The notes beneath the pieces were generated by a model. The model had not been told where the DNA came from and did not search any database. It was given only the letters and a program-made list of their open reading frames with translations. Positions 9,993-23,700 of a stretch of DNA of 42,721 nt are shown in pieces. The stretch covers positions 1-42,721 of the forward strand of contig REEQ01000047.1 in assembly GCA_007695005.1 (NCBI GenBank), written 5' to 3'. The DNA is from Wenzhouxiangellaceae bacterium (GTDB lineage Bacteria > Pseudomonadota > Gammaproteobacteria > Xanthomonadales > Wenzhouxiangellaceae). Position 1 is the stretch's first letter, and each line of letters starts with the position of its first letter. A program made the translations under genes and the position numbers.

Positions 9993-12086
9993 ATGAAGAA
10001 TTCGCTGGGTGCGGTCTTGCTGGCCGCGGTTTTTGTTTCGGGGTCGGTCATGGCCAATGACGATCCATTCCTCTGGCTGGAGGAAATCGAAGGTGACACG
10101 GCCCTCGAGTGGGCGCGTGAACAGAATGAGCGCTCGGAGGCTTTTCTTCGCGCTCATCCCTTGTTTGAAGAGCTGCACAAGCGCAATCTCGAGATTCTGA
10201 CATCAGAAGACCGCATCGCCTTTCCCTCGTTGATGGGCGGGCAGATTTTCAATTTCTGGCGCGACGCCAACCATGTGCGTGGCATCTGGCGGGTGACTAC
10301 GCGCGAGAATTTTCGCGATCCGCGGCCTGAATGGGACGTCATCATCGACGTCGATCAACTTGCTGCCGAGGAGGAGCAGAACTGGGTCTGGGCCGGCGCC
10401 AATTGTCGCTACCCGGATTACGATCGCTGCCTGGTCGGCCTGTCGATCGGCGGTGCCGATGCAGCGGTGCGTCGCGAGTTCGATATGGAAAGCCGCAGTT
10501 TCGTCGAAGACGGGTTCGTGCTTCCGGAATCCAAGAGCTACATCAGCTGGCGCGATCGCGACAGCGTCTTTTTCGGCCCGGCCTTCGAGCCCGAGCAGAT
10601 GACGACCTCCGAATACGCGCGCAAAGTCTACATTTGGCGACGGGGCACGCCGAGGGAAGAAGCAGAGCTGGTGTTCGAAGGCCAGCGCGAGGACGTGCTT
10701 GTCTGGGGCTCGCGGCTCTGGGACGGAGATACAGCCTGGGACGTGATCATACGCCTGCCCACCTTCTTTACCCGTGAGTACCATGTCCTTCGGGATGGTC
10801 AGACGGTCCGGGTCGACGTGCCGGGCGATGCGAACCTGGCCGGTATCATTGGCGGCCAATTGCTGGTCGAGCTGCGCTCGGACTGGACTCCAGGTGATAC
10901 CACCTTTGTTCAGGGTGCGCTGCTGGCCGCGGACATGGAGTCGGTGCTGGCCGGTGAGCCGAGCTTCGAACTGCTGTTCGCGCCGAATGAGCGCCAGGCC
11001 GTCAATGGCGTATCCACGACGCAGAACACGGTGATCGTGTCGATCCTCGAGGATGTGATCGGGCAGTTCGTCCGCTTCACGCGCACCGAAGATGGCTGGC
11101 AGCAGACGCGCCTGGATATTCCGGCCAGTGGCACCCTGAACGTGGTCACTACTGACGACCGCAGTGATGCGTTTTATTTCAACTACACTGATTTCCTGAC
11201 TCCGACACGTCTGTACGAAGCCGATGCAATGGCCGATACTCATCGCCAGATTCGCTCCGAGCCGTCGCGCTTCAACAAGGACGGGATGGAGGTTGAGCAG
11301 CATTTCGCCACCTCGGCAGATGGTGAGCGCATTCCCTATTTCATCGTCAAGCCGGCCGGCTTCGAGGCCAATGGCAGCAACCCGACCCTGATCGGTGCCT
11401 ACGGCGGCTTCGAAGTGGCACGCACGGCCTTCTACTCTGGAATCATCGGTTCCGGCTGGCTTGAGCGCGGCGGTGTTTATGTCCTGGCCAATATCCGTGG
11501 CGGCGGCGAGTTTGGTCCACGCTGGCACCAGGCCGCGCTGCGCGAAAATCGGCAGCGCGCGTTCGATGACCTGATCGCGGTGGCAGAGGATCTGATAGAA
11601 CGAGGCGTTACCTCACCACCGCATCTGGGCATCCAGGGCGGCTCCAACGGTGGTCTGCTGACCGGCGCAGTCATGGTCCAGCGCCCGGATCTGTTCAACG
11701 CCGTCATCATCCAGGTGCCGCTGCTGGACATGAAGCGCTACCACAAGCTGCTGGCCGGGGCCAGCTGGATGGCCGAGTATGGCAACCCGGATGACCCGGA
11801 AGACTGGGCCTTCATCAGTCAGTATTCGCCCTACCAGAAGCTGTCGGCCGAGGCCAACTACCCGAAGGCTTTCGTCACCACCTCGACCCGAGACGACCGC
11901 GTTCACCCTGGGCACGCCCGCAAGTTCGTCGCCCGGATGCTGGAGCAGGGCCACGAAGTGCTGTATTTCGAGAACATCGAGGGCGGCCACGGCGGCGCGG
12001 CGAATCTGGAGCAGTCGGCGTACATCAATGCCTTGATTCAGGCTTATCTGCACGAGCGCCTTGCAGGCGCCCGTGAAGATGGGTAA
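9993..12086 (+). CDS. Secreted prolyl oligopeptidase family (S9A) serine peptidase
   Basis: 697-residue peptidase expected to cut oligopeptides, probably after proline, in the periplasm or outside the cell. A signal peptide is visible (MKNSLGAVLLAAVFVSGSVMA, cut before NDDPFLWLEE). The N-terminal part (about 25-420) corresponds to the S9 propeller, and the C-terminal alpha/beta-hydrolase domain carries the catalytic triad: Ser551 in GIQGGSNGGLL, Asp634 (or 635) in STRDDRVHPGH and His666 in EGGHGGAA. The length is normal for secreted S9A enzymes. It stands alone between the UPF0324 gene and rpoH. Confidence 0.93.
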   Translation: MKNSLGAVLLAAVFVSGSVMANDDPFLWLEEIEGDTALEWAREQNERSEAFLRAHPLFEELHKRNLEILTSEDRIAFPSLMGGQIFNFWRDANHVRGIWRVTTRENFRDPRPEWDVIIDVDQLAAEEEQNWVWAGANCRYPDYDRCLVGLSIGGADAAVRREFDMESRSFVEDGFVLPESKSYISWRDRDSVFFGPAFEPEQMTTSEYARKVYIWRRGTPREEAELVFEGQREDVLVWGSRLWDGDTAWDVIIRLPTFFTREYHVLRDGQTVRVDVPGDANLAGIIGGQLLVELRSDWTPGDTTFVQGALLAADMESVLAGEPSFELLFAPNERQAVNGVSTTQNTVIVSILEDVIGQFVRFTRTEDGWQQTRLDIPASGTLNVVTTDDRSDAFYFNYTDFLTPTRLYEADAMADTHRQIRSEPSRFNKDGMEVEQHFATSADGERIPYFIVKPAGFEANGSNPTLIGAYGGFEVARTAFYSGIIGSGWLERGGVYVLANIRGGGEFGPRWHQAALRENRQRAFDDLIAVAEDLIERGVTSPPHLGIQGGSNGGLLTGAVMVQRPDLFNAVIIQVPLLDMKRYHKLLAGASWMAEYGNPDDPEDWAFISQYSPYQKLSAEANYPKAFVTTSTRDDRVHPGHARKFVARMLEQGHEVLYFENIEGGHGGAANLEQSAYINALIQAYLHERLAGAREDG

Positions 12087-12271: not shown

Positions 12272-13132
12272 ATGGGCAATCATCTCGTTCCAAGTCATCT
12301 GCTTGCACCGGCGGGAACGGGCTCCCTGGATGCCTACATCCAGGAAGTCAACAAAATCCCGGTCCTGAGCCTGGAGGAGGAGCAGGATCTTGCTCGTCGG
12401 TTCCGCGACGAGGAAGATCTGGATGCGGCCCGGTTGATGGTCATGTCGCACCTGCGTTTCGTCGTGCACGTGGCCCGCGGTTATGCCGGCTACGGTCTGC
12501 AGTTGGGTGACTTGGTACAGGAAGGCAACATTGGCCTGATGAAGGCTGTCAAGCGCTTTGACCCGGACCAGGGCGTGCGCCTGGTGTCCTTTGCCGTCCA
12601 CTGGATCCGCGCCGAAATACACGAATTCATCCTGCGCAACTGGCGCATCGTCAAGGTCGCCACGACCAAGGCCCAGCGCAAGCTGTTTTTCAACCTGCGC
12701 CGCCAGAAAAAGCGCCTGGGCTGGTTGAATCAGGCCGAAGTCAATCGCGTGGCCGAGGAGTTGGGCGTCAAGCCAGAGGTGGTAACTGAAATGGAATCGC
12801 GCCTGTCCGGTCAGGATATCGGCTTCGACCTGACCAACGACGATGACGATTCCAGTAGTTATGTGGCGCCGGCAGCCTACCTTGAAGGGCTGACCGTGTC
12901 TCCCGACGAGGCGGCCGAGGCCGAAGACTGGGAGCAGCATCACCACAATCTGCTGTTTGACGGCATCGAGAATCTGGACGATCGCTCGAGGGACATCATT
13001 CAAAGCCGCTGGCTGCTTGATCCGAAGTCGACCTTGCAGGAGCTCGCCGACAAGTATGGTGTCTCCGCCGAGCGGATCCGCCAGCTTGAAGCGGTCGCCC
13101 TGAAAAAGCTCAAGGCCCGTTTCGAGGCTTGA
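12272..13132 (+). CDS. rpoH: RNA polymerase heat-shock sigma factor RpoH (sigma-32)
   Basis: 286-residue sigma factor that directs RNA polymerase to heat-shock promoters. The N-terminus [21 protein letters not shown], region 2 ([35 protein letters not shown]) and region 4 ([20 protein letters not shown]) are intact. The RpoH box QRKLFFNLR distinguishes it from RpoD and RpoS. The ATG at 12272 follows AAGGAG with a good spacer. It is a single-gene unit with its own candidate promoter and an intrinsic terminator. It does not sit beside ftsYEX, its common gammaproteobacterial neighbourhood. Confidence 0.96.
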
Positions 13133-13163
13133 TCCGTCGGCCTGATCGTCGATTTTGCATACC

Positions 13164-13195
13164 AACCCCGGTCTCAAAGGCCGGGGTTTTGTTTT
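13164..13195 (+). terminator. Intrinsic terminator of rpoH
   Basis: AACCCCGG (13164-13171) pairs with CCGGGGTT (13181-13188) across a 9-base loop and is followed by TTGTTTT. It lies 31 bases after the rpoH stop. The T-run is on the plus strand only, so it serves rpoH rather than the converging lanM. Confidence 0.88.
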
Positions 13196-13211
13196 CTGGC
13201 AGCAGTCAGCT

Positions 13212-16070
13212 TCAGGGGGATACTTTCAGGATAAGCGGATCCGGCCAGTCAGGCTGCTCAAGCATCAATAGCCCATAAGCGATTCCGGCCATGCCGGCCA
13301 TCAGGCCGTAAACTTCTCTGCGCGGTTGACTGCCGCAGATCACTTCGCCCTGGTTGATTTCGGCAAGCATGTCGCTGATGGCATGCTCCAGGTCAATCGC
13401 CGCTGTCGAGCTCGGCCAGTGGCGACGCAAGCGCCTGAGCATCAGCAGGTTGCCAAGCCGGCCATGGCAAAGACTGTCATTGTCGCTGCGAAAATGCAGG
13501 CAGGCACCGGGCATCGCCCGGATCAACTCATTCGGTGCAACGGTTCCCATTGCTGCTTGTTGTTCCGACCAGGCCAGGCCGACGCCCAGCGTGCCTCGGC
13601 ACCAGGCCTCTCCGCAGCCGTCAACGGCGCCACCGTGTTGCCAGTCATGCTGGCGCTGCTCAAATCGGGCGGCCTGGGCCAGGAGTTCCGGGATGTCGGC
13701 CGCGGGGTCGATGGTTTGCAGCCTGGCCAGCGCCATGCGGATGCCGCTGCTGCCGTGAGCCATGCCGGTCAGTGGACGTCGATCGGCCTCGGTACATGAC
13801 GGCCAGGCGGCGCCATCATCCGATGCCAGCTGGGCCGCCGTCAGCCGTCGACGAGCCAGTCGGGCGCATTCAAGCGCGGATGGATCGCCGCTCATTCGAT
13901 AAAGCTCCAGTGCTGCGAGCAGCCCGCCGGCACAGCCGGCCATGAGATCCATCCGGCTTTCGCTGAGCAATGCTTGATGCAGCAGTGGCAGCAGGGTGCG
14001 TGCGCGTTCGACCCAGACGGGCTCGTCGAGCAGTCTGGCGCTGGCGCACAGGGTAAAGATCTGGCCGCCCAGGCCTGCGTGGCCGCCGGCCCCGCTCTGC
14101 GCCATGGTGTCGGCTGGCAGGTCCAGATTGTCCTGCAACAGGGTTCTGGCCCGGGACGCCCAGTGCTGTCCGCTGCCTGCTGCAGCCAGTCCGGCAAACA
14201 GCAGGGCGAGGCCGCTTGTGCCCTTTTCCAGGCTGTAGTCAATGCGCGACAGGCTGGCATAAGTGCCGTTGTGATTGGCTTCGAACCAGTGGCCGCGGGT
14301 GGCAGCGTCGAGAATCAACTGGCCCAGGGCCTGCGCAGTTGTACGGCAGCTGGGTGACCGGGCAGGGGTCGGGGGTAGCCTGGGCGGCTTGAATTCAGCA
14401 AAGCTCTCCTCGATAAGGCGCAGCTGCCGCGCCAGGTCGGCTTCGTTCATTTGCGCCAGCCGCTGCGCTGGCGCATTTTCCGAGCCGGGCGGAAAAAACG
14501 CCGGTGCCAGCGGCTTGCCCTCCCAAAAAAGAGTACGCGAGCCGAGACGGGCGCCGAAGGCCGGCACATCACCTTTTTCCAGGCTGCTGCGCTCTGCCGG
14601 AATCAGCGCTTCGATTCCCGGGCAATGCGGGGTGGCGAGCTCGAGCTTGTCCAGCATGCCTGCTCGCTGCTCGGGTCTGGCCAGGCCAGCTGGGCTGTTG
14701 AGCGCCATCAGTAGCTGACTGTAGTGATGGGTGGTGCGCGGCAGGATACGCACGCTTTGATCCTTCAGCCGCTTCAGTAGCTGCTGCTGAAACCGTCTGG
14801 CTCGGCATGGTTCGAGCAGGGCTCGATAGCCATGCTCATATCCGCGCGCCAGCGCGGTGCCCAGCCTGCGCCAGTCCGGTGTCGAATCGGGCCGAAACGG
14901 CGAGTGTGCTGTGGCGGTGATGCGGTCAACGCGCACGGCCTGCAGTAGGCCTTCAGCGTCGACCTCGCCCTGCCAGTGCTGCTCGGTGATGTGTGGCCCG
15001 GTCGCAATCCCGGCCCGATTAAGCGTCGGGCTGCCCCTGCTTACGATCGTCCACGGCAGCAGGCCGGTACCAAGCACGGTGGCGAAGTGGCTGCGCGTTG
15101 CCTGGTCATACCAGGGCAGGTCAAGCCCGACGAAGACCTCACAGTCGATCATCACTGGTTCGTCGCCGACGGCAATCACGTTTTCCGAGTGCAGATCACC
15201 GACACCCATGGCATGAGCGAGGGCCAGCTGAAGGCCGAAGCGCTGAAAATATCGTTCCAGCGCGGCATCGTCTTTTGCCGCTTGCCGAACGATTGTCTGC
15301 ATCCAGCCATGGCTGTTGCAGTCCAGTAGCGCGGGCTGCTGACTCAGTGGATCTCCGGTCTGCTGCGTCAGCTCGCCCAGCGCCCACTGCCAGGTGGCCT
15401 CCATGCCGAGACTGCGAGGCTTGTACACCAGGCTGTGGCCACCCTCGAATTCCAGCAGCAGCGGGTGGCGACCGCGATCATGGCTTTCTTCCCCCAGCGC
15501 CCTGATCCCGATCAGTCTTTGGTCATCCCTGGTCAAGCCCAGCTGGGTCAGCTGGTCCCGGTCTTGCTGGAAATGACGGACAGCATCTGCAATCGCCGAG
15601 GCCAGAAGGTTCAGACGCGCCTGCAGCAGCGAGTCCAGCTCAGGATAGGCGCAGGCCAGCCACTCGTAGCCGTGCTCGCGCACCGTTAGTTCGATCTGCT
15701 CCGGTGACATGGTGTTGAGCGTTTCCGCGCCAGCGGTGGCCAGGGTCTGGAACAGCTTCAGGATGGCCAGGCTGAGGCTGCGAACGCTGGATTCAGTAAG
15801 TAACTCGCACAAATGTTGTTCAAGGCTGGCGAGGTTGACTATGGCCTTTGCTTTCGCGTCAGATCGTAGCCTGTCCGTCAGCAGCTTGAGCTGTACCTGA
15901 ATACGCTGGCCGAAAGCGGCGGTTGCGAGTGAAGCATAGTTGTCGGCGAAGTGGCCTGCCAGGCTGCACTTTTCCGCGTTTTCGGAAGGCTCGACGCACG
16001 AAGGGTGCCGGAGTGGGGATTCGATGCTGTTCAAGTGGGGCTTTGTTCCAAGGCGCGAATTGCCGGTCAT
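13212..16070 (-). CDS. lanM: Class II lanthipeptide synthetase LanM
   Basis: 952-residue bifunctional enzyme that dehydrates Ser/Thr in the precursor core and then adds Cys thiols to form (methyl)lanthionine rings, in the cytoplasm. The dehydratase half has a lipid-kinase-like fold with LVYKPRSLG (Lys217), MGVGDLHSENVI (Asp292, Asn297) and VMIDCEV (Asp309, Glu311). The C-terminal LanC-like cyclase half (from about 600) carries MAHGSSGI and all three zinc ligands: Cys824 in AWCRGTLG, and Cys868-His869 in LCHGRLGN. The length is typical, with no truncation. It follows lanA on the same strand after a 128-base gap holding a strong stem-loop. No clear ribosome binding site precedes the ATG at 16070. 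Its 3' end converges on rpoH. Confidence 0.96.
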   Translation of the reverse strand: MTGNSRLGTKPHLNSIESPLRHPSCVEPSENAEKCSLAGHFADNYASLATAAFGQRIQVQLKLLTDRLRSDAKAKAIVNLASLEQHLCELLTESSVRSLSLAILKLFQTLATAGAETLNTMSPEQIELTVREHGYEWLACAYPELDSLLQARLNLLASAIADAVRHFQQDRDQLTQLGLTRDDQRLIGIRALGEESHDRGRHPLLLEFEGGHSLVYKPRSLGMEATWQWALGELTQQTGDPLSQQPALLDCNSHGWMQTIVRQAAKDDAALERYFQRFGLQLALAHAMGVGDLHSENVIAVGDEPVMIDCEVFVGLDLPWYDQATRSHFATVLGTGLLPWTIVSRGSPTLNRAGIATGPHITEQHWQGEVDAEGLLQAVRVDRITATAHSPFRPDSTPDWRRLGTALARGYEHGYRALLEPCRARRFQQQLLKRLKDQSVRILPRTTHHYSQLLMALNSPAGLARPEQRAGMLDKLELATPHCPGIEALIPAERSSLEKGDVPAFGARLGSRTLFWEGKPLAPAFFPPGSENAPAQRLAQMNEADLARQLRLIEESFAEFKPPRLPPTPARSPSCRTTAQALGQLILDAATRGHWFEANHNGTYASLSRIDYSLEKGTSGLALLFAGLAAAGSGQHWASRARTLLQDNLDLPADTMAQSGAGGHAGLGGQIFTLCASARLLDEPVWVERARTLLPLLHQALLSESRMDLMAGCAGGLLAALELYRMSGDPSALECARLARRRLTAAQLASDDGAAWPSCTEADRRPLTGMAHGSSGIRMALARLQTIDPAADIPELLAQAARFEQRQHDWQHGGAVDGCGEAWCRGTLGVGLAWSEQQAAMGTVAPNELIRAMPGACLHFRSDNDSLCHGRLGNLLMLRRLRRHWPSSTAAIDLEHAISDMLAEINQGEVICGSQPRREVYGLMAGMAGIAYGLLMLEQPDWPDPLILKVSP

Positions 16071-16125
16071 GCTGATGGCCCGGCTCGAGTGGGCGCTGCG
16101 CCTGGCACGGCCACCGGGTTTGGAA

Positions 16126-16153
16126 TCGACAGGGCCCGGCTGGGCCCTGTCGA
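16126..16153 (-). promoter_or_regulatory. 12-bp stem-loop between lanA and lanM
   Basis: TCGACAGGGCCC (16126-16137) pairs perfectly with GGGCCCTGTCGA (16142-16153) around a 4-base loop, 45 bases past the lanA stop and 55 before the lanM start. On the transcribed minus strand it is followed by TTCCAAAC, a poor T-run, so it probably acts as a partial terminator or RNA-stabilising structure. That would give more precursor than enzyme transcript, as in many lantibiotic operons. Its role is inferred. Confidence 0.65.
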
Positions 16154-16198
16154 TGGTTCAGCCTGATGCGCCACGCCTTGCGCGGCGCGTCTTGCTGA

Positions 16199-16366
16199 TT
16201 ACTGGCAGATGATCCAGGTGCCGTCCGGGCACAGGGTGGCCGAGAACGGGTTCGGTTGACAACCGCCCATGCCGCAGCCGCCGCTGATGTTCTTCAGTGC
16301 GTCTTCGTCGATGGTGGCCGGAGCCTGGGCGTCATTCTGCATCATTTCAACGATTTTCTTTTCCAT
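16199..16366 (-). CDS. lanA: Lanthipeptide precursor peptide LanA (double-glycine leader)
   Basis: 55-residue peptide, the substrate of the adjacent LanM. The ATG at 16366 has an excellent ribosome binding site (AAAGGA, 8-base spacer). The leader (1-30) starts MEKKIVEMMQ, is acidic in its second half (IDEDALKN) and ends ISGG, the site cut by C39 peptidases; the exporter encoded at 18500 has such a domain. The predicted core (31-55) contains Cys at core positions 1, 6, 16 and 24, Ser at 12 and Thr at 14 and 20, in blocks CGMGGC, SATLC and TWIIC. Likely rings are Ser12 or Thr14 to Cys16 and Thr20 to Cys24; Cys1 and Cys6 lie before every dehydratable residue and may form a disulfide. No close relative is recognised from memory. 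The activity of the product is unknown. Confidence 0.94.
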   Translation of the reverse strand: MEKKIVEMMQNDAQAPATIDEDALKNISGGCGMGGCQPNPFSATLCPDGTWIICQ

Positions 16367-16600
16367 GATTGATTTCCTTTTTGTTGCGTTTGATTTGCCC
16401 CAGATGGGGCGGGAAGGGGCTGATTGTCAGCACCCGAGGGGTAAGGGGCGCCAGGGCGCCCTGGTACACGCGCTCCCAACGCGTCGTGTTCCGCGGTCAA
16501 GACCACAAGCTGATGGCTGGTCCTGCGGCTGGCAGCTTGGGTGTCTCATCAAGGCTGTTTCCGTCCCGGATCAACTTTTCTCGTCTTTAGGCTGAGAATT

Positions 16601-16630
16601 ATTCTAGACACCGTTTGCGGCTAGAGTCAA
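16601..16630 (-). promoter_or_regulatory. Candidate sigma-70 promoter for lanA-lanM
   Basis: On the minus strand, TTGACT (16630-16625) and TAGAAT (16606-16601) are separated by 18 bases; both hexamers match 5 of 6 consensus positions. Predicted transcription starts near 16594, leaving a leader of about 228 bases before lanA. Confidence 0.6.
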
Positions 16631-16651
16631 TAAGTATTGCCATGATTGACT
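16625..16651. promoter_or_regulatory. Inverted repeat joining the two divergent -35 elements
   Basis: AGTCAAT (16625-16631) and ATTGACT (16645-16651) form a perfect 7-bp dyad with a 13-base spacer; half-site centres are 20 bp apart, about two helical turns. Each arm is also the -35 region of one divergent promoter. It could be a shared operator for a dimeric regulator, or simply two facing -35 boxes. No regulator gene is present in the locus. Confidence 0.5.
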
Positions 16652-16675
16652 AACAATGTAAAGTGGATTTAGTAT
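16646..16675 (+). promoter_or_regulatory. Candidate sigma-70 promoter for the export/tailoring operon
   Basis: TTGACT (16646-16651), an 18-base spacer and TAGTAT (16670-16675, 4 of 6 matches) lie 39 bases before the first adaptor gene. An alternative pair, TTGCCA with TAAAGT (16-base spacer), overlaps it. Confidence 0.5.
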
Positions 16676-16714
16676 GCTTAATCCAGCCAGAGAAGCAAAT
16701 AAATCTCACATCAA

Positions 16715-17578
16715 ATGGGAACTTTCGAGGTTTTAAAAAGCCATGAGTGGCCTCTAGTAAAAAACTTCTTACCAGCAGTTGGGTTTTTGCTAGCTTCCAG
16801 CCTGACGGTTGCCGCTGTGGCAGACGATGAGCATTGGTTCGGGACTGTTTTCCCGGCTAAGGCGGTGTCGGTCAAGAGCGAACTCGATGGCATAGTCGAA
16901 AGCCTTGATGTCGTCATCGGCGAAATCGTTGCCAGCGGCCAGGCGCTCGCCAGCCTGGACATCGAGGAACTGACCACTCAGCTGACGCGATCAAGCGCCG
17001 AATTGCGCAGGGCCCAGGCGCAGGTAACCGAAGAAGAATCGATGGTGGAATTGCGCGACGCGGAGTTGCACCGTCGTCGTATCGCCGGTTTCAGCATTTC
17101 CCAGGAGGAGCTGGGCATGGCCGAGCAGCTTTTTGCTGCAGCGAAGGCGAAGCTGGCGGCGGCGCAGGCGCATCTGGAGGCTGTACAGGCCGATCATGAA
17201 CTGCTGTTGTTGACCCAGAGGCGCACGTTCATCGTTGCGCCGATTGATGGTGTTGTTCAAGAGCGCAGGGTTCGCGCCGGCGACCGGATTAGTGCTGGCG
17301 AGACCATGTTCGAGATCGTTTCACCCGACGATTTGTATGTCCGCTTCGCCATTCCGGAGCGCGCCAGGCAACCCGTCGAGCTTGGCCAAACCGTTTGGCT
17401 GGATGGCAGTGTTGCCGCCGAAGTGGTCGCCATCGCGCCCGGTGCCAACGCAGTGACTGGCTTGATCGTCGCCGAGGCTCGCCTGCAACAAGCAGCGCTC
17501 GATTTGCTGGGCCGCGGCGTGCGCGTCAGCCCGGAAAATTCCGAGCCCTTGTCGGGCTCGGGGTTGGTGCTCCAATGA
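16715..17578 (+). CDS. HlyD/RND-type periplasmic adaptor (first of two)
   Basis: 287-residue adaptor predicted to bridge the ABC exporter towards an outer-membrane channel. A hydrophobic signal segment (about 17-35) ends in AVA-DD, so the protein may be cleaved and periplasmic. A half-lipoyl motif (GIVESLDVVIGEIVASGQALASLD, split here at residues 54-77) precedes a long Ala/Glu/Leu-rich coiled coil (about 80-165), then the second half-lipoyl strand (VAPIDGVVQERRVRAGD) and a beta-barrel (about 205-250). There is no obvious C-terminal membrane-proximal domain. The start at 16715 lacks a good ribosome binding site. Its stop overlaps the next start by four bases (ATGA). Confidence 0.87.
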   Translation: MGTFEVLKSHEWPLVKNFLPAVGFLLASSLTVAAVADDEHWFGTVFPAKAVSVKSELDGIVESLDVVIGEIVASGQALASLDIEELTTQLTRSSAELRRAQAQVTEEESMVELRDAELHRRRIAGFSISQEELGMAEQLFAAAKAKLAAAQAHLEAVQADHELLLLTQRRTFIVAPIDGVVQERRVRAGDRISAGETMFEIVSPDDLYVRFAIPERARQPVELGQTVWLDGSVAAEVVAIAPGANAVTGLIVAEARLQQAALDLLGRGVRVSPENSEPLSGSGLVLQ

Positions 17579-18498
17579 GTGACAAGCCTGGCGCGCTATT
17601 CCGCGAGCCTGCGATCATCGCCCGTGATCTTGGTGATGAGGACCTGGATCCGGTGTTGCGCAATGCACCGGACTGGACTGTCCTGACCTACCGCATTCTG
17701 CTGGCCTGTCTGGCGATTGCTGTTGTGTTTGCCATGGTGGCTCGCATCAACAACTATGCCGACGGCACCGGCGTGGTTCTGCTGGGCAGCGATGCGCGCA
17801 TCGTCGCGCGCGAAGCGGGCACCGTGGAAGCGGTTCGTGTCGCCAGTGGCGACTGGGTCGAGGCCGGTGATGTCCTGGTCGAATTGCACGCTCGTCGCGA
17901 GCGTGATCAGTTGGCGCTGGCCGAGCAGAACTACGCCGATGCGGTGCGGCGCTGGCTGTTGTCGTATCAGGACGCTGACCAGGTCGTTCAAACCCGCTCG
18001 GAACTGCGCCGGGCCCAGGCTCAGCTTGAGGAGCTGGTGGTGCGGGCAAGCGTCTCCGGCCCGGTCAACGATATTCGCGTGCGTGCCGGCCAGCCGGTCG
18101 TTGCCGGCCAGGTATTGCTGACTCAGGGTGCGGGCGTGGGACAGGGTGGAGTGAGTCTGTTCCTGCCCGGTCACTATCGTCCGCGACTGGCCCCAGGGCA
18201 ATTGGTTTCGCTTGAGTTTCCTGGTCATACCCATTCGCGGATGACGCTGGAGTTGGCTCATGTCGACGGTGAGCTGATCGGTGTCGAAGAGGCCAGGGGT
18301 CGGGTGGGATTCGGTCTGGGAGAAAGCCTGGAGCTCAGCGGTGCGCTGGTCCGGGCCGAGGCGCGCTTGCTGGAACCGGTTTTTGTCTACCAGGGGCGCG
18401 AGTACCCGCTGCATGACGGCATGATCGTCACCGCCCAGGTACTGATCGGGTCTGAGCCCCTGGCTTATGTCTTGATCCCCGGCCTGCGGCAGAACTGA
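17575..18498 (+). CDS. HlyD-family membrane-anchored adaptor (second of two)
   Basis: 307-residue adaptor with a cytoplasmic N-terminus, one transmembrane helix (about 41-59), a lipoyl half-motif GTVEAVRVASGDWVEAGD, a shorter helical hairpin, the returning lipoyl half SGPVNDIRVRAGQPVVAGQ and a beta-barrel region. This is the architecture of adaptors paired with bacteriocin ABC exporters, and it lies directly before one. The ATG at 17575 overlaps the previous stop as ATGA; the frame continues upstream, but that part is the out-of-frame reading of the first adaptor. Its stop is one base before the lanT start. Confidence 0.87.
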   Translation: MSDKPGALFREPAIIARDLGDEDLDPVLRNAPDWTVLTYRILLACLAIAVVFAMVARINNYADGTGVVLLGSDARIVAREAGTVEAVRVASGDWVEAGDVLVELHARRERDQLALAEQNYADAVRRWLLSYQDADQVVQTRSELRRAQAQLEELVVRASVSGPVNDIRVRAGQPVVAGQVLLTQGAGVGQGGVSLFLPGHYRPRLAPGQLVSLEFPGHTHSRMTLELAHVDGELIGVEEARGRVGFGLGESLELSGALVRAEARLLEPVFVYQGREYPLHDGMIVTAQVLIGSEPLAYVLIPGLRQN

Positions 18499-18499
18499 C

Positions 18500-20731
18500 A
18501 TGAAGCCGATTGGAGAGTTGAACAAGCGCTTCGGCGCGCTGGGCCGGATTTCCTTGAGGCAACGCCGAATTCCGCATGTCGTGCAGCAGCAGCACTCTGA
18601 CTGCGGGCCGGCATGCCTGGCCATGGTGCTTGGTTTGCATGGACGCAAGGTCAGCCTTGAGGAAATGGTCGAGGCCTGCGGCACCGTGCGTCAGGGTACC
18701 AGCGCCCATGTGCTGCTCAATGTCGCCCGTCAGCACGGGCTGATCGGAAGAGGGGTGAAGATTTCAGACAACCTGGCAGAGCTGCGCTTCCTGCCTCGCG
18801 GCAGCATTCTGCACTGGAAGTTTCACCATTATGTGGTGCTCGACGAGCTGCTTGATGACGCCATCGTGGTGATGGACCCGGCGCGCGGTCGGGTGACCGT
18901 GCCAATGGCGGAGGTCAACAAGTCGCTGACCGGTGTCGCCCTGACCTTCGAGCAATCCAAGGACTTTGCGCCCGGTGGCAAGGACAAGTCCAGCCTGCGG
19001 CCGTTTTTCCGCCTGATTCTTGATGACAGTTCAGTCCTGCAGCGCGTGGTCGTGGTTTCCTTTGCCTTGCAGTTGTTCGCCCTGGGGCTGCCCTTGATGA
19101 CCGGTGTGCTGGTTGATCGCATTGTCCCGCGGCAGGATTACGACCTGCTGATGGTTATCCTGCTGGGCGTCGCGCTGGCCTTCGCGTTTCGTTTTCTGTG
19201 CAGCCTGTTGCGCAGCTATTCGCTGCTTTATTTACGCACCCGGCTGGATGCGGTGCTGACCTTCAACTTTCTGGATCACCTGATCAGTCTGCCGTTCGAC
19301 TTCTTCGATCGGCGTCGGTCTGGCGATCTGGTCATCAAGATGAACAGCAATCGCGCTGTGCGCGACGTCTTGACCAACAGTTCGGTCTCCGCGGTCCTCG
19401 ACGGCGGCATGCTGGTGTTTGCACTGTTGGTGCTGTTCATCGGTTCGCTGCCGCTGGCCCTGATCGTGTTGGCTTTAGCCGGCATCCAGAGCCTGGTCTA
19501 CCTGACGACCCGGCGCTACTACCGTTCCCTGCATCTTGACCAGCTGATTGCCCAGAGTCGTGCTCAGGGCCTTCAGATGCAAATGCTGACCGCCATCGAG
19601 CCGCTGAAAACATCCGGCCGGGAGCATGTGGCGGCCGAGCGCTGGGCAGATGCCTACGTCGACGAGCTCAATATCGTGCTCAGGCGAGGGCGCCTGGAGG
19701 CCTGGACCAATGCCATTCGCGATGGCGTGGTCAATTTCGGTCCTTTGCTGTTTCTCGCCGCCGGTGCCTACATGGTGCTGGCCGGCAGCTTGTCGCTGGG
19801 CATGCTGCTGGCGCTGAGCATGGTTGCAACGAACGTGTTGCAGCCGTTCAACCAGCTGCTGGATACCGGGTTTGAGCTGCAAAAAATGCGCAGTCATCTC
19901 GAGCGCATCAATGACATTTTCGGTGCTGCGAAGGAACGCGAGGGCCGAGCCTGGTTGCCGCCGCCAGCGCTGTCTGGCGCGGTCAAGGTCGAACAGCTGG
20001 CTTTCAGCTATGACCGGGCCCGGACGCCGGTGTTGCGCCAGGTCAGTTTCGAGGCGCGCCCGGGCGACTTCATTGGTATCGTCGGACAATCCGGCTCGGG
20101 CAAATCAACGCTGGCGCGGCTGCTGGCCGGCCTGTATCTGCCCGAGTCAGGCAGGATCCTGTTTGATGAGCTGGATATCCGGCAGCTGGATCTCGAAGCC
20201 ACTCGTCAGCAGATTGGCATCATCACCCAGGACGTATTTCTGCTCCAGGGCAGCGTTCGGGAAAATATTGCCTATGGCCAGCAGGGTGCATCGCTGGCCG
20301 ATATCCAGAAAGCGGCGCGCCTGGCTTGCATCGACGACGATATTCAGGCATTGCCGCTGGGCTATCACACCCAGATCGGTGATGGCGCCAGCGGGCTGTC
20401 CGGGGGTCAGCGCCAGCGTATTGCCCTGGCCCGGGCCCTGTTTCGCGATCCGAAAATGCTGATCCTTGATGAAGCGACCAGTGCGCTGGACAGCATTACC
20501 GAGGCCAGGGTCTATCGCCAGATCGAACAGCTCAAGGCTACCCGCATCGTCATAGCCCATCGCATGAGCACCATTCGCGGCGCTGACCAGATTCTGGTGA
20601 TGGCGGATGGCGAGATCGTTGAACGCGGCAGGCATGAGGAGTTGATGGCGCGCGGTGGTCGTTACCAGCAGATGTATACAGCGCAGTCTGAACGCCGAGG
20701 CAAGCCGGACAGGCAACATGTCGCAGGATAA
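18500..20731 (+). CDS. lanT: Peptidase-containing ABC exporter (LanT-type, C39 domain)
   Basis: 743-residue inner-membrane transporter that cuts the double-glycine leader and exports the mature peptide. The N-terminal C39 domain has oxyanion Gln29, catalytic Cys35 (HSDCGPAC), His110 (FHHYVVL) and Asp126 (VMDPARG), so it looks active rather than a degenerate CLD. The membrane domain spans about 165-450. The nucleotide-binding domain has Walker A GQSGSGKST (529-537), signature LSGGQ (633-637), Walker B MLILDEATSALD and the H-loop IVIAHRMST. This matches the GG site in lanA, which is transcribed divergently. The stop overlaps the next gene by 14 bases. Confidence 0.96.
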   Translation: MKPIGELNKRFGALGRISLRQRRIPHVVQQQHSDCGPACLAMVLGLHGRKVSLEEMVEACGTVRQGTSAHVLLNVARQHGLIGRGVKISDNLAELRFLPRGSILHWKFHHYVVLDELLDDAIVVMDPARGRVTVPMAEVNKSLTGVALTFEQSKDFAPGGKDKSSLRPFFRLILDDSSVLQRVVVVSFALQLFALGLPLMTGVLVDRIVPRQDYDLLMVILLGVALAFAFRFLCSLLRSYSLLYLRTRLDAVLTFNFLDHLISLPFDFFDRRRSGDLVIKMNSNRAVRDVLTNSSVSAVLDGGMLVFALLVLFIGSLPLALIVLALAGIQSLVYLTTRRYYRSLHLDQLIAQSRAQGLQMQMLTAIEPLKTSGREHVAAERWADAYVDELNIVLRRGRLEAWTNAIRDGVVNFGPLLFLAAGAYMVLAGSLSLGMLLALSMVATNVLQPFNQLLDTGFELQKMRSHLERINDIFGAAKEREGRAWLPPPALSGAVKVEQLAFSYDRARTPVLRQVSFEARPGDFIGIVGQSGSGKSTLARLLAGLYLPESGRILFDELDIRQLDLEATRQQIGIITQDVFLLQGSVRENIAYGQQGASLADIQKAARLACIDDDIQALPLGYHTQIGDGASGLSGGQRQRIALARALFRDPKMLILDEATSALDSITEARVYRQIEQLKATRIVIAHRMSTIRGADQILVMADGEIVERGRHEELMARGGRYQQMYTAQSERRGKPDRQHVAG

Positions 20732-21125
20732 TAGTGGCCCGACCGAGGAGGCCTGGCTGGTAGCCCTGTCTGCGCTGGTGATCCCGCCTGAGGTGGGCGC
20801 TGGCGAAGGCGCGGACGGCGTTGAGGATTATCTTCGTAAACTTCTGTTCAGGCCGCGCGGACAGTTGCTCGGCCTGCTCGTCGCGCAGCTGCGCTCAGCG
20901 CTGGGAGAGACTGGCGCGGGCGATTTTCCGAACCGCCCAACGGTCGAACGAGAGCAGATCCTGAGGCAGCTGATTGAACAGGCGGATGCGCCGCTGCGTC
21001 GCGCCTGGTCCATGTTTATTGAATTTTGCGTCGAGGCCTGGCTCTGCGATCCGGCTCGCGGAGGTAATCGCCAAGGGCAGGGCTGGCAGAGGGTTGGCAT
21101 GTCGGGACCGGGCAGGGCGCCATAA
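20718..21125 (+). CDS. Gluconate 2-dehydrogenase subunit 3-like small protein
   Basis: 135-residue protein placed directly before a GMC flavoprotein, as the small subunit is in gluconate, fructose and sorbitol dehydrogenase operons. Its C-terminal stretch DPARGGNRQGQGWQRVGMSG matches the family pattern (P-x-x-GGN-x-x-x-G-W-x-x-x-G), and the upstream helices (ALSALVIPPEVGAGEGADGV, then YLRKLLF) also fit. Unlike many family members it has no Tat signal, so the complex is probably cytoplasmic and could act before export. The start is ATG at 20718 inside the end of lanT; translation is probably coupled. It ends two bases before the GMC gene. The partner and substrate are inferred from context. 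Confidence 0.78.
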   Translation: MSQDNSGPTEEAWLVALSALVIPPEVGAGEGADGVEDYLRKLLFRPRGQLLGLLVAQLRSALGETGAGDFPNRPTVEREQILRQLIEQADAPLRRAWSMFIEFCVEAWLCDPARGGNRQGQGWQRVGMSGPGRAP

Positions 21126-21127
21126 GG

Positions 21128-22738
21128 ATGAGCGAGCCAATCCCCGATGCCGTGATTGTCGGCGCCGGCGCTGGCGGTGCCGCCATGGCCTGGTCTCTTT
21201 GCCGGGCCGGGTGGCAGGTGTTGCTGCTCGAGCGCGGGCCCGATCACGCGCGCGAGGATTACCAACCCGATGAAATCAGCGTCCTGCGCGAGGGTTTCCT
21301 GCAACCCGATCAGGGTGCTTTTCATTGGGTCAGCACGGGTGCTGACGGCAGCTCACCCTTTCCGAGCACCCTGGGCTGGACGGCGAGTTGTGTCGGTGGC
21401 GGGACTGTGCATATGGGCGGATTTCTGTACCGTTTCCACCCTGTCGATTTTCGCATGCGCTCGATCATGGGCGATGTGCCTGACCTCGCCGACTGGCCGT
21501 TCTCCTACCAGGACCTGGAACCCTACTATCAGACTGCCGAAGGCCTGATCGGAGTCGCCGGCGACGGCAGTACTCGCTATGTGCCCCGCTCCGGACCGCA
21601 TCCGCTGCCGCCGCTGGCTGCGCATCCTCTCAGTGAGCGACTGCGCGAGACTTGCACGACCATGGGCTTGGCACCCTTCGTGACCCCACGCGCGGTCAAC
21701 TCCATTGCCTACCAGGGGCGGCCAGCCTGTCAGTATTGCGATGCCTGTGCCGGTTACGGCTGCCCGATCGGGGCCAAGGGTAGTGCCCAGGAGACCCTGG
21801 TTCGGAGCGCGCTGCGTACCGGTCGACTGCAGCTGCGCACCGGCATGGTTGCCAGCGAGATCTGCCTGGATCGCACTGGCAAGGCCGATGCTGTCATTTG
21901 CATTGACCGGGAAAGTCGACAGTCGTTGCGCTTCCGGGGGCGCCACATCATTGTCAGCTGTTCGGCGGTCGAGTCGGCTCGGCTGCTGCTGCTGAGTCGT
22001 TCTGGGCGGTACCCTGATGGACTGGGCAATGACAACGGACTGGTCGGGCGTCATCTTCAATTCCATGGCACGACCTTCGGCAGCGCAAGGCTGGAACGGC
22101 TGGGGGATTGGCATCCGTTCCTGAACCTGTCGGTCGCCGACTATTATCTCGGCGGCGAGGGCCTGGGAGGACTGCCGAAGGGCGGGATGCTTCGCTTCGA
22201 CATGCTGGGCCGCTTGCCGCTGCGACGTGCGCTGGACTTTCTCGGCCGGCAGCCAGCGCCACTTTGGGGTGAGCAGCTGGTGGCCGATCTTCGCCGTGAG
22301 CTGGGAGATTTCGACCGTATCGAATACGAGGCTTTTCACGACTATCTGCCTAGTCCGGGCACTTGGGTGGGTCTGGATGAGGGGCGGCTGGACGGCTATG
22401 GTCTGCCCTCGGCGCACATCCGCCTCGACAGCTGCGCACTGCGCAGACGCAGCGGTGAACTGCTCGCCGAGCGGGCTGCCGAAATTCTGGGCCGGCTGGG
22501 TGCTGACGACATCGTGCACGATGCGGTGGGTGCAACATCGTCCTACCTGGTGCATGGCAGCTGCCGGGCGGGAGATGATCCCGAGACCAGCGTGCTTGAT
22601 CCGTGGTGCCGTGTGCATGCTGTGCCCAATTTGCATGTGGTCGACGGCAGTTTCATGCCGACATCGGGTGGTGCTTCGCCGACGCTGACCATCGTTGCCA
22701 ATGCCTTGCGCGTGGGGCATCATCTGGTCAAGTCCTGA
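21128..22738 (+). CDS. GMC-family FAD-dependent oxidoreductase
   Basis: 536-residue flavoenzyme. The FAD-binding Rossmann motif GAGAGG is at 12-17, with the ribose-binding Glu36 after VLLLERG. A second FAD contact region is LGWTASCVGGGTVHMGG, and the C-terminal GMC signature runs from VHGSCRAGDDPETSVLDP to VVDGSFMPTSGGASPTLT. The catalytic His is probably His476; the usual Asn-Pro of the second active-site position reads Ser517-Pro518. A Cys cluster, CQYCDACAGYGC, is typical of the gluconate dehydrogenase large-subunit branch. No signal peptide or haem-binding subunit is present. In this operon it most plausibly oxidises the lanthipeptide or a cofactor; the substrate is unknown. Confidence 0.9.
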   Translation: MSEPIPDAVIVGAGAGGAAMAWSLCRAGWQVLLLERGPDHAREDYQPDEISVLREGFLQPDQGAFHWVSTGADGSSPFPSTLGWTASCVGGGTVHMGGFLYRFHPVDFRMRSIMGDVPDLADWPFSYQDLEPYYQTAEGLIGVAGDGSTRYVPRSGPHPLPPLAAHPLSERLRETCTTMGLAPFVTPRAVNSIAYQGRPACQYCDACAGYGCPIGAKGSAQETLVRSALRTGRLQLRTGMVASEICLDRTGKADAVICIDRESRQSLRFRGRHIIVSCSAVESARLLLLSRSGRYPDGLGNDNGLVGRHLQFHGTTFGSARLERLGDWHPFLNLSVADYYLGGEGLGGLPKGGMLRFDMLGRLPLRRALDFLGRQPAPLWGEQLVADLRRELGDFDRIEYEAFHDYLPSPGTWVGLDEGRLDGYGLPSAHIRLDSCALRRRSGELLAERAAEILGRLGADDIVHDAVGATSSYLVHGSCRAGDDPETSVLDPWCRVHAVPNLHVVDGSFMPTSGGASPTLTIVANALRVGHHLVKS

Positions 22739-22749
22739 AGGAGAACCCC

Positions 22750-23700
22750 ATGAGCACATCCGGCACGGACGCTGATGCTGCCCTGGACCGTAATTGTCCG
22801 ATCATCGATGGCCGGCGAGAATTCCAGCGTGTTTCGGCCCGCACCTCCGATGTGGGCGGCATCTCGGTGGCCCGCTTGCTGCCGCATCGACAGCGGCGCC
22901 TGATCGGCGCCTGGTGTTTTCTTGATCATGCCGGGCCGGCGAACTTTGACGATGGGCAGTCCGGCCTGATTGTTGGACCGCACCCGCACACATGCCTGCA
23001 GACCTTTACCTGGATGATTGCCGGCGAGGTGTTGCATCGTGACAGTTTGGGCTGCGAGCAGATCATTCGACCAGGTCAGGTCAATTTGATGACGGCCGGC
23101 CACGGCATCAGTCACATCGAGGAGACCGTGCCGGGTTGCAACCTGCTGCACGCTGCCCAGCTCTGGATCGCTCTGCCCCATGCCGAGCGCTTTATCGCAC
23201 CGCGTTTTGATCATTATCCCGAGCTGCCGGAGTTTGGTCTCGGTAAGCTGACAGCAACCCTGCTGGTTGGCGAGTATGCCGGCTTTGGTGCTCCGACCTT
23301 GAGGTTCTCGCCGCTGATCGCCATGGATCTGCAGTGGCGCGGGGCCGGACAGAATGCACTGGAACTGCGCCCGGATTTTGAATACGGCATTTTGCCGCTG
23401 GAAGGGGGTGGTCTGCATCTCGACGGCAGTGCCTTGGCCGTCGATGAGCTGGCGTACCTGGGTCAGGAGCGGGATTCGGTCAGGCTCGACTATTCCGGCG
23501 GCGGTCGAGCCCTGCTGATCGGTGGCGAGCCGCTGGATGCGGAGATCACGATCTGGTGGAATTTCGTTGCTCATTCCAAAGCCGATATCGAGCAGGCCCA
23601 GGATGACTGGAATGCCGCAGACAAACGCTTCGGGGAGATCACTGCGGCGCGTGGGCGCCGGCTTCAGCCGCCTGAGATTCCCTGGCGCCGCGATCGGTAA
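22750..23700 (+). CDS. Pirin-family cupin protein
   Basis: 316-residue bicupin of the pirin family, whose members include metal-dependent quercetin dioxygenases and regulatory proteins. The metal ligands are all present: His78 and His80 (PHPHT), His122 and Glu124 (GHGISHIEE). The second half (about 190-290) is the C-terminal cupin. The ATG at 22750 has AAGGAGA at 22738-22744, overlapping the GMC stop, so it is the last gene of the export/tailoring operon; an open frame extends further upstream but lies inside the GMC gene. A redox or dioxygenase role in peptide tailoring is possible, but a stress or regulatory role is equally open. It converges on the next gene with a 12-base gap. Confidence 0.9.
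   Translation: MSTSGTDADAALDRNCPIIDGRREFQRVSARTSDVGGISVARLLPHRQRRLIGAWCFLDHAGPANFDDGQSGLIVGPHPHTCLQTFTWMIAGEVLHRDSLGCEQIIRPGQVNLMTAGHGISHIEETVPGCNLLHAAQLWIALPHAERFIAPRFDHYPELPEFGLGKLTATLLVGEYAGFGAPTLRFSPLIAMDLQWRGAGQNALELRPDFEYGILPLEGGGLHLDGSALAVDELAYLGQERDSVRLDYSGGGRALLIGGEPLDAEITIWWNFVAHSKADIEQAQDDWNAADKRFGEITAARGRRLQPPEIPWRRDR

Follow-up and report, generated by a model that had tools for sequence, protein, structure and literature searches.

A Wenzhouxiangellaceae lanthipeptide locus with a GMC-family oxidoreductase predicted to form a thiazole at the leader/core junction

What might an oxidoreductase of the GMC family and a small partner subunit do beside a lanthipeptide synthetase? The question is raised by a stretch of 42,721 nucleotides (nt) from a Wenzhouxiangellaceae bacterium (contig REEQ01000047.1 of assembly GCA_007695005.1), which we call the window. 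A lanthipeptide precursor gene and its LanM gene, on the minus strand, are followed on the other side by a divergent plus-strand operon (16715–22738) encoding two HlyD-like adaptors, a C39 exporter, the small subunit and the GMC enzyme, with overlaps of at most 14 nt and gaps of at most 2 nt. A sequence-only reading of the window had recognized the lanthipeptide class correctly and had overlooked the GMC enzyme with its partner subunit (20718–22738), which are tightly spaced with the exporter genes (from a 14 nt overlap to a 2 nt gap). We consider it probable that the locus is a gammaproteobacterial cluster of the tha/the kind, whose peptide would carry lanthionines together with a predicted thiazole. 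The genes concerned are the following.

16199–16366, minus strand: lanA-type precursor of 55 amino acids (translated open reading frame), with a leader (residues 1–30) ending in ISGG and the core CGMGGCQPNPFSATLCPDGTWIICQ
13212–16070, minus strand: LanM, class II lanthipeptide synthetase of 952 amino acids (DUF4135, LANC_like, TIGR03897)
16715–17578, plus strand: HlyD-like periplasmic adaptor 1 (Pfam; 60% identity to its counterpart in G018, a genome of the same genus)
17575–18498, plus strand: HlyD-like adaptor 2, with its start set by homology and a 4 nt overlap with adaptor 1
18500–20731, plus strand: C39 peptidase–ATP-binding cassette (ABC) exporter of the LanT type, 743 amino acids (Pfam/NCBIfam; 73% identity to the G018 counterpart)
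20718–21125, plus strand: Gluconate_2-dh3-like small subunit (Pfam) without a twin-arginine translocation (Tat) signal, overlapping the exporter gene by 14 nt
21128–22738, plus strand: GMC-family flavin adenine dinucleotide (FAD) oxidoreductase, predicted thiazole-forming enzyme of the ThaO/TheO type, with both GMC domains, CxxCxxCxxxxC at residues 201–212 and a His476/Asn525 pair

In 2026, GMC enzymes were reported to form thiazole in ribosomally synthesized and post-translationally modified peptides (RiPPs), namely in the lanthipeptides of two Acidobacteriota clusters, tha (ThaA, ThaM, ThaO) and the (TheA, TheM, TheO); in the main text, the authors state that the GMC-family enzymes which they name were previously undescribed in RiPP biosynthesis (PMC13083261). 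According to the same text, ThaO makes thiazole from a Gly-Cys of ThaA (nuclear magnetic resonance, isotope labelling and a C1A mutant), while TheO works in the absence of LanM, lowering the mass near GGC by 20 Da; it depends on the two Gly residues that flank the Cys and tolerates G-2A.

GMC and LanM genes occur together, as found by computation, in six loci from five genera, the window included: the window, G018, a genome of the same family (G036), a further genome (G031), Myxococcus qinghaiensis and the alphaproteobacterium Eilatimonas milleporae. In G036, a single run of genes comprises HlyD, HlyD, C39, small subunit, GMC and LanM. In G031, HlyD, HlyD, C39 (as two open reading frames), small subunit, GMC and two precursors lie near a contig end and LanM sits at the edge of another contig; we infer that the two contigs represent one cluster. 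C39, precursor, LanM and GMC are present in M. qinghaiensis, with no small subunit found. The E. milleporae locus holds four precursors, a small subunit, GMC, LanM and a broken duplicate, with no C39 match within 21.6 kb; the precursors and a duplicated unit fall within L022:11792–17561, the duplicated unit having a C-terminal GMC fragment (13054–13365) before the intact LanM.

Among 398 genomes of the order, GMC matches above 660 bits were found solely in the window, G018, G036 and G031, each from a genome that also encodes LanM; the match ranking next scored 547 bits. Among 398 genomes of the phylum the best match besides that of the window reached 532 bits, and the 15 GMC neighbourhoods examined from this search contained no full LanM and one weak match (14.6 bits). 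Three of 22 LanM-bearing genomes (G018, G031, G036) have a GMC of this kind (>600 bits), and two more have weaker, unlinked relatives (about 220 bits). The relatives in the genome contigs were found by searching with the GMC alignment and not by a scan with LanM alone; a scan of viral contigs gave no relatives, and plasmids yielded two GMC relatives, both distant (about 33–34% identity; E up to 1e-40). Since relatives of the GMC enzyme and of the small subunit exist without LanM nearby, the pair might be a chance neighbour from general metabolism behind the exporter. We judge this very improbable: the linkage is repeated in different genomic contexts, the window and G018 having no flanking genes in common in the stretches compared, and the free-standing relatives mostly have Tat-type small subunits and lie across a fully supported branch of the enzyme tree described below.

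The junction between leader and core points in the same direction as the linkage. A Cys directly follows Gly-Gly in all ten precursors of the six GMC/LanM loci, each with Gly at position −1, and the window junction reads GGCG, with both of the Gly residues (G−1 and G2) that TheO needs. For comparison we used 17 LanM loci without this GMC (L083–L089, L011, L012 and L126–L133), of which some share a genome and some have only part of LanM. Precursors of the GG type were identified in four of them (G057, G357, G397 and G1071; five precursors), none with Cys at the junction, whereas L083 and L085 have Nif11-like candidates instead. Counted by locus, the contrast gives p = 0.005 in Fisher's exact test. 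It should be noted that the precursors of M. qinghaiensis and E. milleporae were first found with a pattern requiring Cys after GG or a similar pair, which is a bias; a scan without the Cys rule recovered the precursors of the window, G018, G036, G031 and E. milleporae and not that of M. qinghaiensis, which we think was missed because an upstream start lengthens its frame. The GMC-less clusters of G057 and G357, from the same order as the window, have precursors ending in VNHCLCC or INHCLCC (L011:12002–12250; L086:7838–8086).

The other end of the core might suggest a different product. LanD flavoproteins form S-aminovinyl-cysteine in other lanthipeptides, and a Cys lies within the last three residues of all ten precursors, as would be expected if the GMC enzyme made a C-terminal S-aminovinyl-cysteine by LanD-like oxidative decarboxylation. 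We regard this as extremely improbable, since in each of the ten the last Cys is followed by one or more residues, and is thus never C-terminal, and LanD belongs to a different flavoprotein family.

The RiPP-linked enzymes also stand apart in their tree. In a tree of 34 GMC proteins, the six LanM-linked proteins and that of one further locus, L017, lie on one side of a branch with 100/100 support and 27 others lie opposite; L106, whose fragment filled only 11% of the columns, was left out. The approximately unbiased test neither supports nor rejects a clade restricted to the LanM-linked rows (p-AU 0.394). Among the small subunits of the LanM-linked loci and L017, five of six frames lack RRxxh, and the sixth (E. 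milleporae) has RRRRA solely in an extension before the aligned start. A looser Tat pattern flagged RRWL in the G018 small subunit, with no signal-like stretch after it, and the stricter pattern was negative. In contrast, 25 of the 28 non-RiPP rows have a small-subunit match, and 22 of these 25 have RRxxh in the first 75 residues. The lack of a Tat signal, unlike in the non-RiPP relatives, fits a cytosolic enzyme: its loss would keep the GMC enzyme in the cytosol, the site of modification of the leader-bearing precursor.

Cys201, Cys204, Cys207, Cys212, His476 and Asn525 are all present in the window GMC enzyme. The four Cys residues are invariant in eight of eight aligned GMCs and present in all seven RiPP-linked rows, and three of them (Cys201, Cys207 and Cys212) align with the 3Fe–4S ligands Cys212, Cys218 and Cys222 of the Burkholderia cepacia FAD glucose dehydrogenase (6a2u). 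In six genomes of one gammaproteobacterial family (L055–L060), a Tat-type small subunit adjoins a GMC without the four-Cys motif; in two of them (L055 and L057) a thioredoxin-like WCxWCHK protein, named by eye, lies beside this pair.

The rest of the locus is, as far as its sequence tells, that of a class II lanthipeptide cluster with an intact LanM and C39 domain. As the sequence-only reading had proposed, a full LanM lies beside the precursor (435 bits to TIGR03897, cut-off 304; DUF4135 and LANC_like domains; LicM2 alignment), with the zinc ligands Cys824, Cys868 and His869, which are invariant in three aligned LanMs, and the divergent HlyD–HlyD–C39 genes are present and intact, with Cys35, His110 and Asp126 in the C39 domain. 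That reading had also called the locus complete; the class holds, and completeness is not supported, as no immunity or regulatory gene was assigned.

Translation of 16199–16366 gives the 55 residues that had been read there, with the ISGG/C junction between the leader MEKKIVEMMQNDAQAPATIDEDALKNISGG and the core CGMGGCQPNPFSATLCPDGTWIICQ; AAAAAGGAAATCAATC precedes the ATG. A core with Cys and Ser/Thr thus stands behind a double-glycine leader, as in class II. Ile27 and Leu24 put the canonical double-glycine signal at residues 29–30, by the usual spacing of the motif. The mass of the unmodified core, given earlier as about 2598.1 Da, was recomputed as 2598.083 Da (monoisotopic). The gene had been described as unannotated, and indeed no Pfam or NCBIfam model matches the precursor above cut-off; when matches with E up to 1 are admitted, the sole NCBIfam model to appear is a generic bacteriocin signal (13.9 bits, cut-off 15.7), so that TIGR03898 does not match, and Pfam gives nothing.

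A homologue of this precursor, with the leader MKNELIEMMRKNVQADQSADQVNVIDDEALKSINGG and the core CGGMGGCQPNPFSATLCPDGTWYQCP, is encoded in G018, the only other genome with one among 30 of the genus, that of the window included (E 9.1e-44 from the two-row model A1, which already contains this sequence). The cores are identical at 22 of 25 aligned residues, five of these 22 through synonymous codon changes; the three replacements are confined to the final four positions, and one additional Gly is present in G018. The leaders share 14 of 30 residues. As the core is thus kept better than the leader, we judge the precursor to be more than a chance frame, and by this pattern of conservation it is a real gene. 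The core is also better conserved than the LanM acting on it (43% identity between the window and G018, compared with 66% for GMC and 73% for the exporter). A LanM match was found in two of the 30 genomes of the genus and, given also that the flanks of the window and G018 differ in the stretches compared, the cluster would be patchy in the genus and perhaps mobile. Finally, with four Cys residues against three Ser/Thr in the window core, one Cys is left over for a thiazole.

Several observations weigh against a thiazole at this locus. The canonical double-glycine site for C39 is retained in the leader, and cleavage would be blocked by a thiazole at that position. The window GMC can be likened to ThaO/TheO by family name and substrate motif only. 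Residue +2 is Gly in six of the ten precursors and A, V, A or C in the others, although TheO needed Gly there. The contrast at the junction comes from small numbers (five precursors in four GMC-less loci, with G057 and G357 belonging to one genus), and the Nif11-like candidate of the GMC-less locus L085 reads KGCG; lacking a double Gly, it was not counted. The ratio of Cys to Ser/Thr varies across the loci, so that one spare Cys is no rule there. The four-Cys motif, with the same or nearly equal spacing, also occurs in nine of the 28 other rows and is therefore not RiPP-specific. Moreover, one GMC of the RiPP clade, that of L017, belongs to a lasso-peptide-like cluster in which neither of two candidate precursors contains GGC, so the clade may not be thiazole-only. 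This cluster (L017:6709–16991) encodes two asparagine-synthase proteins, a transglutaminase-like protein, the GMC enzyme with its small subunit and two candidate precursors with YETPxxLxIG; we presume these to be lasso-peptide genes.

We may wonder at this stage whether the product is an ordinary class II lanthipeptide, cut by C39 at ISGG/C, with Cys1 free or in a lanthionine and the GMC pair acting elsewhere, on another core residue or on a small molecule. The canonical leader together with the intact C39 domain would suit such a peptide, as would the linkage of the L017 clade member to precursors without GGC and the fact that the closest solved structures to the window GMC are glucose and fructose dehydrogenases. 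We nevertheless find it unlikely in view of the GMC–LanM linkage in six loci and five genera, the clade of RiPP-linked GMCs, the GG/C junction in ten of ten precursors and, on the evidence of the main text of PMC13083261, the formation of thiazole by the same GMC/LanM/GGC combination elsewhere. The linkage, the junction, the published ThaO/TheO chemistry, the 100/100 clade and the Tat-less small subunits are the reasons for which we prefer the thiazole-plus-lanthionine peptide.

For such a peptide we infer thiazole formation at the window locus, the ring pattern, the cofactors, export and activity as follows. The precursor would be made in the cytosol, where LanM would dehydrate Ser/Thr residues, up to core Ser12, Thr14 and Thr20, and close up to three lanthionine or methyllanthionine rings on core Cys6, Cys16 and Cys24. 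The GMC enzyme, likewise cytosolic and accompanied by the Tat-less small subunit, would convert Gly30–Cys31 to thiazole by removing one water and two hydrogens (−20 Da); an Fe–S cluster on Cys201/204/207/212 is the probable route by which electrons leave FAD. The C39–ABC/HlyD system would then export the peptide. In a probable thiazole-containing lanthipeptide, core Cys1 is probably not a lanthionine partner, and the predicted change in mass is −20 Da for the thiazole and, for three dehydrations, up to −54 Da in addition.

A Gly30–Cys31 thiazole would remove the scissile bond of C39 and thus conflicts with double-glycine cleavage. The cut at ISGG/C assumed in the sequence-only reading is impossible on a peptide in which this bond has become the predicted thiazole. 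Modified peptides may be cleaved at another site or by a different protease; alternatively, C39 may act solely on unmodified peptides. A broader proposal would take the GMC enzyme, as a cytosolic FAD/Fe–S protein, and its Tat-less, hitchhiker-type subunit as a general ATP-independent module for peptide modification in RiPPs, working beside LanM in Myxococcota and Pseudomonadota and beside lasso genes in L017; in the lanthipeptides the thiazole at the scissile bond would set the leader cut and leave an aminomethyl-thiazole from Gly−1 as the mature N-terminus. We hold this proposal to be doubtful.

Around these genes the following further features were noted.

16125–16154, minus strand: stem-loop of 13 bp between precursor and LanM, without a terminator-like T run; possible attenuator or stabilizer of the mRNA end
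16601–16630, minus strand: promoter-like TTGACT-18-TAGAAT upstream of the precursor (consensus match only)
16646–16675, plus strand: promoter-like TTGACT-18-TAGTAT upstream of the divergent operon (consensus match only)
16637–16664, plus strand: second promoter-like site, overlapping 16646–16675 (consensus match only)
22750–23700, plus strand: pirin-like protein, 11 nt 3′ of the GMC gene on the same strand, probably outside the pathway

The 128 nt gap between precursor and LanM, which contains the stem-loop, folds 6 standard deviations below shuffles (z −6.0). No intrinsic terminator was found 3′ of the precursor, only this stem-loop, which may keep precursor mRNA above LanM mRNA; the G018 precursor is also followed by a stem-loop, of different sequence. 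The pirin gene was dropped as a cluster member, no pirin being present in the other GMC/LanM clusters searched, and the flanking genes were dropped because the window and G018 share none in the stretches compared. An S9-family peptidase (Pfam) lies near the window cluster (9993–12086) and an S9-like protein, named by eye, adjoins the G018 cluster (L016:15228–17384). The two are mutually dissimilar, and neither is therefore named as leader peptidase.

If the thiazole prediction is true, the window locus and its five relatives, two of them in named strains, extend the chemistry reported for Acidobacteriota to Gammaproteobacteria, Alphaproteobacteria (Eilatimonas) and Myxococcota. The relatives would serve as natural variants, with G, A, V or C at motif residue +2 and with or without the small subunit. 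They would raise a sharp question: how does a double-glycine peptidase process a leader when its cleavage site is now part of an aromatic ring?

With the mersacidin/lichenicidin systems, whose precursors are described by TIGR03898, the window cluster has in common LanM, a double-glycine leader and a C39 exporter, and six of eight aligned precursors from GMC-linked loci match that model (the two of G031 are outside the alignment). The window differs in that its precursor does not match, its leader is short and a GMC gene is present. The B. cepacia glucose dehydrogenase (E 1.5e-48 to the window GMC) is of the same GMC family; in the sections of PMC6719666 drawn on here, it is a sugar dehydrogenase that is secreted and includes a haem subunit, and its gamma subunit is a Tat hitchhiker. 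This enzyme and fructose dehydrogenase share with the window an Fe–S cysteine loop (cluster binding in the window being predicted), the His/Asn pair and a gamma-like small subunit. Compared with the glucose dehydrogenase, the window pair has no Tat signal, its fourth Cys is differently placed, it is linked to LanM and no haem subunit was seen in its operon. MftG of mycofactocin is, in the partial accounts drawn on here, another GMC enzyme tied to a RiPP, with a different role. In the open literature searched, from which subscription journals are mostly absent, no other description of GMC-bearing lanthipeptides was found, nor any of a lanthipeptide with gluconate 2-dehydrogenase or of a lasso peptide with a GMC oxidoreductase.

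The closest comparison is thus with the tha and the clusters as the main text of PMC13083261 presents them. The window differs in its host, outside the Acidobacteriota, and in its core. Beside them it sets the Tat-less Gluconate_2-dh3-like small subunit and the C39/HlyD export operon, and neither 'Gluconate' nor 'C39' occurs in that main text, supplements apart. What the window shares with both clusters is a class II LanM, a Cys-rich core and a GMC-family oxidoreductase encoded with LanM and the precursor, and with TheA it shares Gly-Cys-Gly (G−1, C1, G2) at the junction of leader and core.

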